A stretch of DNA of 10,563 nt. Origin: Eutypella sp. D-1. Lineage: Eukaryota; Ascomycota; Sordariomycetes; Xylariales; Diatrypaceae. Both the position numbers and the translations under genes were made by a program. Numbering within the stretch: position 1 is the stretch's first letter; each line of letters opens with the position of its first letter. The notes below the pieces were generated by a model, which saw nothing but the letters and a program-made list of their open reading frames with translations, made no database searches and was not told the DNA's origin. The DNA is taken from positions 1-10,563 of the forward strand of contig JAJTTP010000071.1 of NCBI GenBank assembly GCA_023313575.1, in the 5' to 3' direction. Below, in pieces: positions 3,811 to 5,637 of the stretch.

Positions 3811-3904
3811 AGAAAAGATGTTGGAACAGAATAGGATCACCCCCACCTGCTAATTCAAAAAATGAGGTATTGAAATTTCTATCTGTCAATACCATAGTTA
3901 TTCC
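3811..3904 (-). CDS. cox1: cox1 exon 5
   Basis: The 94-nt exon encodes [20 protein letters not shown] then [11 protein letters not shown] and the first base of the next codon, clear Cox1. The start at 3904 follows ...acag-g, so the protein reads LPVLAG-GITM; many Cox1 proteins have Ala at that junction residue. The end is placed at T 3811 because exon 6 begins GATTC, which makes TGA = Trp in the invariant HLFWFFGHPE. The frame continues into the i5a endonuclease. A weak P1 (TTTCT with GGAGA about 95 nt downstream) is possible but not convincing. Confidence 0.92.
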
Positions 3905-4035
3905 CTGTTTTTCGCATTAATCTACCTACCTTAGTACTTATAATAATCTTTGTTCAAAGAATTTTAAAAATTCTAAAAAAAATCAATAATTTTCGGTAGA
4001 TATTCAACACATCACTACGTTGGTTGGACTATCTC

Positions 4036-4218
4036 TTATATATTTTTTTCTTTTTTTTTTTTTTTACCTGTACTTATACTGATACCGAAGGGATATGGCA
4101 GGCCTAATTTATTAGAAAATAATGAATTTAGATTATCTTGATTCCAAATATTGTCACGATTATTTTCTAATTTAAAAATAAGTTCCTCATAAGATATATG
4201 AGGGTTTTTTTTCTGAGA
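4036..4218 (-). pseudogene. Short ORF relic beside the P8 3' arm
   Basis: A 60-codon open frame (stop at 4036) reads SQKKNPHISYEELIFKLENN, then NRDNIWNQDNLNSLFSNKLG and LPYPFGISISTG, ending in a run of Lys from the poly-A arm of the inverted repeat. The mix of polar and hydrophobic residues is more protein-like than random AT-rich DNA. NKLGLPYP loosely resembles DKLGLPHS, which precedes the GIY domain in the i2 protein. It may be the leftover of an earlier intron gene. It has no ATG start and I cannot name a family. Confidence 0.35.
4039..4065. repeat. Left arm of a 27-bp perfect inverted repeat (P8 stem of i4)
   Basis: On the plus strand this arm is TATA, seven T, one C, fifteen T. It is the exact reverse complement of 5418-5444, including the lone C/G at the same place. 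It lies just before the 3' strand of P7 in transcript terms, as expected for P8. Confidence 0.85.
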
Positions 4219-4301
4219 TTATTATTATAATATACAAAAAATTTTTGAGATATTTCCTATTTTATTTCAACTCTAAAGATATAATTCCTAATCTTAATTA
4301 A

Positions 4302-5399
4302 CTAATTGTTATTATTATTATTATTATTTAATGATGAAACAGCCTGAAGTGTAGGTGAATTATTATTCACATGATTTATAAGATCTTGTCTAAATCTACG
4401 CATACTATCTAATGTACGCTCTTGAGATTGCACAACAGCAGGACTTCGAGTAGCCCCTTCGGTTTCCATAATGTCTTCAAAATTTGCTATTACAACATTA
4501 AGTCTACTTACTCCAAATCTTGCGTGATCTAGAGGCATTTGATTCATAGCAGTAACTCTACCTCAAATATATCAAGGTGAAGTTGGATTATCTATGAAGG
4601 GACCACCTATATGATTTGTAGTTCCAGGTATTCCACTACCTGGCATTAACGCAGCACGCCACACGCGATTAAGAGATATATCTAAAGCAGCTACAGCTTT
4701 ACTTCGAACACCTCGTTGACCAAAATATTCAGCTGTAGCTTGATGAGGCATTTGAGGGTGATTCTCCGCACCCACATCCAAACCATCATACGGTCGAGGG
4801 TCATAATCCGCTCTGTTGTCCACACTACTATTACGAGAAGATGCTTGAGAACTTGGTCTAGAATTCCCGGGATTCATAGAATTAGGAGATTCTGACCTCC
4901 TTGACTCTAATATTTCCTTTATATTACTCTCCTTTAATGAGTCTGCTCCATTATCTAATGATATACCACCTAACGGTAAACCTAAAAATTTACCTTCACA
5001 ACCAGCTAATAAGTTTGATATTTTTATATTAAAGAATTTACCTGCGAAAGGTAAATGTAGTGAATAAATAAAACCCGGTATACTAACTATATTAGTTAAT
5101 ACATAAAAATCAAAAATATAATGAATACCGCACTTTATAAGAAAACCATACAAACCAGAACACAAACAAGTTAATAACATTAATCAAGTAAACTTAGGAA
5201 TTATCCCCCTTCATATTCCACTTTGTAAAGGTAGACTTACAAAGGCGTGAGGTTTAGGTGGACTATTTAAAGCCAAACCTAAGATCATATGACCTCTTAA
5301 AGAGGGATTTCTAGCTACTCCTAAAATTAATGCACCTAAAAATCAAAAAATTAATACACCTGAAAATACATAAAAAACAGAGAGAATTCCCAAGTTTAA
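4302..5399 (-). CDS. Chimeric ORF: ATP9 piece + Cox1 C-terminal tail + unknown domain
   Basis: Open for 365 codons in code 4, from TTA at 5399 (after an in-frame TAG) to TAG at 4302. Start options are TTA or TTG upstream, or ATG at 5288 (328 codons). Residues 5-28 are a hydrophobic helix; 22-36 read GALILGVARNPSLRG, matching helix 1 and the polar loop of mitochondrial ATP synthase subunit 9. Residues 44-60 read LNSPPKPHAFVSLPLQS, matching the extreme C-terminus of fungal Cox1. Subunit 9's second helix with its proton-carrying Glu is absent, so this is not a working c-subunit. Residues 72-120 contain one or two membrane segments. About 130-360 are hydrophilic, Ser/Asn/Pro-rich at first, then VRSKAVAALDISLNRVWRAA and FEDIMETEGATRS, ending in eight Asn. 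The distal domain is unrecognised. Trp is TGA in LIFW, SGIW, KFTW and TSPW, suggesting translation under code 4, but expression is unproven. Confidence 0.8.
4309..4329. repeat. ATT/AAT trinucleotide microsatellite
   Basis: About seven ATT units on the plus strand. On the minus strand they encode the run of Asn that ends the chimeric ORF just before its TAG stop. Slippage here would change Asn count without altering frame. Confidence 0.9.
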
Positions 5400-5417
5400 C
5401 TATGGTATATACTAGAT

Positions 5418-5444
5418 AAAAAAAAAAAAAAAGAAAAAAATATA
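5418..5444. repeat. Right arm of the 27-bp perfect inverted repeat (P8 stem of i4)
   Basis: On the plus strand this arm is fifteen A, one G, seven A, then TATA. It pairs with 4039-4065 across a 1352-nt loop containing the chimeric ORF, and it lies just after the 5' strand of P7. Confidence 0.85.
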
Positions 5445-5562
5445 CTTTGGCATATAGTCTCTGAAGGTTATAGAAAACATTATTTTCTAGCTTTCCTGCT
5501 GATTGTCATTATTAAAAGAGTTTCCAGCAATTAGCCAAATTTAGAGCCGGCAGAACTGATTT

Positions 5563-5637
5563 ACCGGCTAATACAGGTAAAGATAATAATAATAATACAG
5601 CTGTAATAACTACAGCTCATCCAAATAAAGCTAATTT
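5563..5637 (-). CDS. cox1: cox1 exon 4
   Basis: Twenty-five codons, KLALFGWAVVITAVLLLLSL then PVLAG, form the conserved helix before the ITM-LTDRNFN loop of Cox1. The Trp of FGW is TGA, direct evidence for code 4. The start follows G at 5638. The end after GGT at 5563 is fixed by a perfect P1 helix, GCCGGT (5568-5563) with GCCGGC (5551-5546), closing with U.G. Confidence 0.95.

Follow-up and report, generated by a model that had tools for sequence, protein, structure and literature searches.

The window (the whole stretch of DNA analysed here, 10,563 nt) is contig C69 of a 48.5-Mb assembly in 72 contigs, and its minus strand carries two cox1 exons separated by a group I-like intron. Within this intron lies an uninterrupted frame of 365 codons plus stop in the mould mitochondrial code (code 4), referred to here as the composite frame. 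The features of the locus, in reading order, are as follows.

5563..5637 (-): cox1 exon 5′ of the intron, ending in LPVLAG (5′ limit provisional); 94.7% to the fungal-type cox1 in NZ_CP053901.1
3905..5562 (-): group I-like cox1 intron of 1658 nt between LPVLAG and GITM; boundaries set by eye, with P4, P7 and the closing stem in RNAfold
5518..5530 (-): P-like core element TTGCTGGAAACTC, pairing as P4
5490..5504 (-): Q-like core element AATCAGCAGGAAAGC, from motif by eye and fold
5455..5465 (-): R-like core element TTCAGAGACTA, from motif by eye and fold
5414..5444 (-): 5′ arm of the 31-nt inverted repeat closing the loop, 97% complementary, paired in the whole-intron fold
4302..5399 (-): composite frame
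5323..5370 (-): 24-nt tandem repeat, two copies 83% alike, overlapping the start of the atp9-like stretch (family D20)
5268..5342 (-): atp9-like stretch GALILGVARNPSLRG(HM)ILGLAL, corresponding to Atp9 residues ~27-55 but short of 12 nt, from DNA match
5286..5288 (-): first ATG of the composite frame, codon 38, from which database protein P0001 is called
5220..5270 (-): Cox1 tail LNSPPKPHAFVSLPLQS, from DNA identity to the cox1 3′ end
4875..5219 (-): extension, membrane part, codons 61-175; related by BLAST to the Cox1 extensions of P0002 and P0003, with membrane character from hydropathy
4305..4874 (-): linker and C-terminal part (codons 176-365) with an Asn run at its end; relatives in the window's own family only
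4039..4069 (-): 3′ arm of the inverted repeat, paired in the whole-intron fold
4022..4036 (-): S-like core element AGAGATAGTCCAACC, from motif by eye and fold
3834..3904 (-): cox1 exon 3′ of the intron, beginning GITM (3′ limit approximate), from frame reading

The four core elements, which we take to be those named P, Q, R and S, were recognized by eye and are joined by the expected pairings in RNAfold: both P4 (5530-5524 with 5502-5496) and P7 (5459-5454 with 4032-4027) form in the whole intron and in the core alone. The repeat stem (5444-5414 with 4069-4039) also forms in both. The Rfam group I covariance model gave no match to the intron at E<=1; the class therefore rests on motifs and stems and is held with lower confidence, and we describe 3905-5562 as an apparent group I-like intron of cox1. 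Within this limit, the initial report of an intact 365-codon frame in a cox1 group I intron was confirmed. The frame sits between the R and S elements, that is, in the P8 loop, a position that homing endonuclease genes often occupy in group I introns. Neither a target-site duplication nor an empty site was seen for the intron.

No endonuclease was visible in the initial annotation, and closer analysis agreed. Pfam detected no endonuclease family in the composite frame, be it LAGLIDADG, GIY-YIG or another nuclease domain. Only one other minus-strand frame of at least 80 aa overlaps the intron, namely the LAGLIDADG frame of the next intron, by its first 12 nt. An endonuclease remnant in the intron was rejected after Pfam analysis of the composite frame and inspection by eye of the other minus-strand frames of at least 24 aa. 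A 60-aa frame (window 4036-4218, minus strand) reading SYEELIFKLENNRDNIWNQDNLNSLFSNKLGLPYPFGIS is found after the stop of the composite frame, ahead of the closing repeat; its genome matches are redundant copies of the locus only (7/7).

These copies lie on seven contigs (C43, C47, C50, C52, C55, C63 and C69), of which six are 100% identical over the composite frame and C52 differs by indels only. Compared with about 8 kb of the window, C52 shows 53 gap openings and 4 mismatches, resembling an unpolished long-read copy; an A run near the closing repeat has 15 residues in C69 and 16 in the other six contigs. The possibility of several genomic copies of the frame was set aside, and the seven contigs were taken as a redundant assembly of one locus. 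The cox1 exons of one gene are dispersed on overlapping contigs (C55/C50 and C49/C37).

The composition of the frame is that of coding sequence. Five of its six Trp codons are TGA and one is TGG, and GC content by codon position is 0.44/0.43/0.18, a signature shared by the first 60 codons holding the atp9 scrap and the tail (0.42/0.40/0.15). In 2000 Markov sequences modelled on the intron no frame exceeded 186 aa, and in 2000 modelled on the composition of the frame itself none exceeded 254 aa. Since 365 codons exceed every frame in the 2000+2000 sequences, a chance frame is ruled out, and the non-random, coding character first noted by inspection is upheld.

The 5′ part of the frame combines pieces of two mitochondrial genes. 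Compared with the genome's intact mitochondrial atp9 (C36/C38), the atp9 scrap shows 88% identity across 50 nt, and 87.5-88.7% across 53-56 nt in a second comparison. No ATG lies 5′ of the scrap within the frame, and the hydrophobic residues preceding it stem partly from the 24-nt tandem repeat. The Cox1 tail is identical at 41/51 nt to the genome's own cox1 3′ end, with one residue different. The initial annotation had set out beforehand that it would fall if its two strings had no homology in atp9 or cox1 of this genome, and both homologies are present. Its proposal that the 3′ ends of two genes were captured holds for the Cox1 part, while the atp9 part proved to be internal. A third atp9 relative in the genome (C15, 64% identity, a 120-codon frame) looks nuclear. 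PDB sequences gave weak matches only to the window protein, the best (E 0.095) being ATP synthase subunit 9/c over residues ~3-46, and a structure model of the protein was too poor for use (pLDDT 39.7, pTM 0.26).

The remainder of the frame was initially regarded as an unknown domain. This does not hold for the membrane part, which contains one hydrophobic segment (70-88, by hydropathy) and, even when the tail is excluded, is homologous to the Cox1-fused extensions of P0002 and P0003 (E 1.4e-12 and 3.7e-15; 36% over 214 columns with the tail). The frame is therefore more aptly seen as a cox1 3′ end captured together with its extension and joined to an atp9 scrap. The frame thus shows the arrangement of a group that we call the Cox1 C-terminal extension family, a tail of the form PPKPHxF..LQS followed by a homologous extension. 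The initial label of an unknown domain still applies to the last ~190 residues (codons ~176-365), for which no relative was found beyond P0001, P0016 and P0022; past the membrane part, BLAST detected no similarity to the Cox1-fused members, and weak look-alike stretches were seen by eye. The idea that the extension is a copy of the present local cox1 extension was ruled out, as the two share no similarity outside the tail; the donor was therefore not the local cox1 in its present form. Searches with the window protein, P0001 or P0028 found no relatives in viral_contigs, genome_contigs or plasmids.

Close relatives of the window protein differ in how they vary. P0001 (ENA, a cluster of 20 members) departs from it at 3/328 residues. 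P0016 is identical at 93/102 positions over codons 73-175 and at 67/97 thereafter, and none of 20000 shuffles was as uneven. This pattern fits protein-level constraint on the membrane part, in a comparison of the window protein, at the protein level, with database proteins (P0016 and P0001) preselected as open frames.

The tail is present elsewhere in the genome. A scan with the tail DNA pattern returned 12 contig matches (reversed control 0), which represent three loci: the cox1 3′ end, a site just after atp6, and the cox1 intron. The tail of the composite frame is identical to the copy after atp6 at 41/51 nt. At this second site (L036:2059-3363, contig C37) a Cox1 tail and extension directly follow atp6, in the -1 frame relative to it. 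The extension there matches both the atp9-fused P0028 (1.7e-28) and the Cox1-fused P0002 (6.2e-27; 2e-36 with tail), so that modules of a single type are found after three genes. The window shares with P0002 the membrane part, and the atp6 copy shares mainly the C-terminal part; by these matches, parts of the extension seem to shuffle.

Further along the same contig (L036:4007-5677 on C37; also on C33 and C57) a single 556-codon frame runs from an atp9 copy through a degraded Cox1 tail into an aminotransferase of class III (Aminotran_3, E 1.6e-78). This atp9 copy has lost its polar loop, 48 nt between short direct ATTTTGGGA repeats. An 810-codon stop-to-stop frame at L011:4846-7278 (C36) overlaps the intact atp9 in its -1 frame and likewise has an aminotransferase of class III at its end (E 6.9e-78). 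Since atp9 is also open in the -1 frame in the unrelated record L040, the overlap in L011 may mean little. The gene order in this mtDNA is atp9, class III aminotransferase frame, cox2 N-terminus, and a class III aminotransferase between atp9 and cox2 appears in the accessible description of Annulohypoxylon stygium (PMC6140425). This order suggests that the source of the window is a filamentous ascomycete.

The extension following the genome's own cox1 lies in the -1 frame (L037:2207-2249, on C37 and also C49), and the 43-nt overlap contains A AAA AAG GGT TTG, with heptamers of the slippery type. In L042 (reverse strand, just after the cox1 tail) a second, degraded tail and a helical frame likewise occur in the -1 frame, over AAAGGGTTT. 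The -1 arrangement after cox1 could reflect either programmed frameshifting or, in the window's genome, a one-base assembly error in the A run. Relatives of this Cox1 extension (P0012, P0013, P0014, P0017 and P0019) have a mosaic look by eye, P0013 starting like P0012 and finishing like P0019, which suggests recombination between extension alleles in this group.

To survey such fusions we used P0010, which comprises a nearly complete atp9, the tail and the extension, as a query; it gave 833 matches at E<=1e-6, and the best 120 were inspected. Among these 120, with the query included, at least nine have an atp9 part followed by a recognizable tail (P0010, P0023, P0024, P0025, P0028, P0029, P0048, P0050 and P0051), with several atp9 breakpoints. 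P0023 and P0029 were recognized by eye, and P0048 and P0051, which are one residue apart, include some 55 residues of the Cox1 end. Many of the remaining matches in the set are simply atp9, or carry the name nuclear subunit 9, or have an atp9 part with a different extension. The joining of atp9 to a Cox1 tail, taken by the initial annotation from this one frame, is on these comparisons recurrent and not unique. The tail itself is degraded in several fusions (P0023, P0029 and that on C37) and therefore may be a passenger; a role for it as a conserved cleavage or sorting signal was not adopted for the same reason. Cox2 can be named only weakly as another partner: the start of P0007 resembles the Cox2 N-terminus (42% over 38 columns, E 3e-4), and Pfam gave no COX2 match in P0007.

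Two sequences connect the tail with endonucleases. P0006 consists of the tail, a hydrophobic part and a LAGLIDADG_1 domain. In addition, the tail pattern found three stretches in viral_contigs, each with a mitochondrial cox1 3′ end, and in L043:4513-5963 this end occurs in two copies that agree at 90% over 163 nt and flank a LAGLIDADG frame of 325 codons (E 1.4e-44). L043 is filed as viral (IMG/VR), and it appears to hold a gene-end-carrying endonuclease element at cox1. Its layout equals that described in the available text on the hybrid genes of Allomyces and Rhizophagus (PMC3630166).

According to the same text, mobile ORF elements with duplicated C-termini occur in Allomyces and Glomus/Rhizophagus mtDNA and affect atp6, atp9, cox2 and nad3 (PMC3630166). 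The window resembles these systems, as far as they are described there, in that a duplicated core-gene 3′ end (here the tail copy, 41/51 nt) travels with extra coding sequence to give hybrid genes. It differs in two respects. The described elements contain an endonuclease, as L043 does and the window does not; and they sit at the 3′ end of the copied gene, whereas the window frame, built from the cox1 end and atp9, lies in an intron loop in mid-cox1. Lacking an endonuclease frame, the window is therefore not filed as an element of the Allomyces/Rhizophagus type. The comparison with these fungi, already drawn in the initial annotation, is strengthened by L043, and for the window itself it goes no further than a presumed ancestry. 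Like homing endonuclease genes in group I intron loops, the composite frame is a free frame in a peripheral loop beside an intact core; unlike them, it encodes no recognized endonuclease. In our view the frame is best regarded as a chimeric relative of the mobile elements that duplicate gene ends, one that lacks an endonuclease and lies within the loop of an intron.

The reading we favour, and regard with some reserve as the probable one, is that the frame is a relocated copy of a portable cox1 3′-end module, lodged in the loop of an intron and retained as a gene for a membrane protein. Its anatomy, homologies, recurrence, coding composition and uneven protein-level conservation are observed. 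The module would consist of the cox1 3′ end (the last ~17 codons) and the C-terminal extension that follows Cox1 in several fungi. Recombination in mtDNA would have joined an internal atp9 scrap to its 5′ side, and the module would have landed in the P8 loop of the group I-like cox1 intron, where the core, although split, can be kept together by the 31-bp stem and the intron may have stayed able to splice. Portability would arise because endonuclease elements, inserting at the cox1 3′ end as in L043, probably carry a duplicate of that end, and recombination on short repeats may re-use such duplicates. We infer that endonuclease elements made cox1 ends portable and that recombination placed them elsewhere, the window intron having no element boundary that proves it. 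Translation would most likely proceed from intron RNA, as with intron endonucleases. It would begin either at a non-ATG codon close to the atp9 scrap or at the ATG that immediately precedes the tail, and its product is predicted to reside in the inner membrane, its C-terminal part being soluble. The inferred side of this reading comprises splicing, translation, the part played by endonuclease elements and any selected function.

The same anatomy could be recent neutral recombination debris, a duplicate of the cox1 end and a piece of atp9 brought together in the intron loop, in a frame that has not yet decayed. The atp9 part is indeed broken, by a deletion and a tandem repeat, and is without an ATG, and truncated gene copies are described as common in such mtDNAs in the accessible parts of two reports (PMC4162613, PMC7999263). 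Debris of this kind, however, would not be expected to look like P0016, which keeps the frame at ~80% protein identity and is conserved above all in the membrane part, nor to have a coding-like third-position composition across the whole frame. We consider this explanation possible but, on balance, unlikely.

Two functional proposals fare worse. The yeast Cox1 C-terminus takes part in Mss51-dependent feedback, and the frame might accordingly encode a mimic of the Cox1 end with an influence on how Cox1 synthesis or assembly is controlled. The tail is perfect in the window frame, where catalysis does not need it, yet its degradation in several other fusions makes such a role quite unlikely. It is similarly improbable, and slightly more so, that the frame is itself a homing element, still active, with a nuclease of an undescribed kind as its C-terminal part: the location is one where endonuclease genes often lie, and P0006 has the same layout with a LAGLIDADG domain, but the window frame has no Pfam nuclease, the only nuclease-like match is a sub-threshold one to PDDEXK_3 in P0002 (E 0.03), and a membrane segment precedes the C-terminal part. 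An alternative 3′ end of cox1, with the upstream exon spliced or read into a frame that bears a Cox1 end and lies within cox1, is scarcely credible, because the preceding exon stops at LPVLAG, far upstream of the Cox1 tail, so that a large part of Cox1 would be missing, and because the frame starts after the R element, inside the loop.

Partial parallels to the window frame are known from other fungi. The Cox1-tail module itself was not found in the open-licence literature as represented by titles, abstracts and passages, which is weak evidence of absence. The nearest published cases found, in the accessible text, are ORF 0044 of Sclerotinia borealis, an atp9 copy without stop joined to an unrelated 213 aa, and the atp9 and atp8 copies of Ciborinia camelliae; between them the two species have truncated atp9, atp6 and atp8 copies with foreign C-termini (PMC4162613, PMC10512376). 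These copies are described there as free-standing, not intronic, and the descriptions, on which the comparison is based, mention no Cox1 tail. The cox1 CDS lengths of 2073 and 1995 bp given for these species (PMC4162613, PMC10512376) would be consistent with an extended Cox1. In Tremella fuciformis, a cox1 intron and other introns carry duplicated N-termini of host genes (PMC7315562); as described in the passages available, those pieces are N-terminal and derive from the same host gene, whereas the window combines a C-terminal tail, a second gene and a new part.

The module would tie scattered annotation oddities, namely atp9 copies with foreign C-termini and overlong cox1 CDS, to a single recurrent unit. 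It would also suggest, in a testable way, how gene-end duplications borne by endonucleases could give rise to new membrane proteins of mitochondria, and the window would exemplify an intact chimeric gene lodged, in place of an endonuclease, in the loop of a group I-like intron. A broader proposal is speculative and, taken as a whole, unlikely: that endonuclease elements at the cox1 3′ end have seeded fungal mtDNAs with a family of portable Cox1-tail/extension modules, and that these repeatedly make chimeric membrane proteins by joining atp9, atp6 and perhaps cox2, and now an intron loop, with products that are selfish or nucleus-interacting factors, a fungal counterpart of plant CMS genes. One such gene is petunia pcf, a chimera of atp9, cox2 and urfS (PMC11312923). 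As described in the accessible text, plant CMS genes are likewise chimeric mitochondrial frames in which recombination has combined atp9 or cox pieces with novel sequence. The likeness is one of analogy: the plant genes belong to another kingdom, no phenotype is known for the window frame, and common descent is not implied.

Several of the records used here are mitochondrial DNA under other names. NZ_CP110133.1 and NZ_CP053901.1, from the plasmid collection, and L041-L043, from IMG/VR, are fungal by their cox1 and are filed as bacterial plasmids or viral contigs; in the two fungal-type mtDNA records with bacterial plasmid names, cox1 ends without a long extension.
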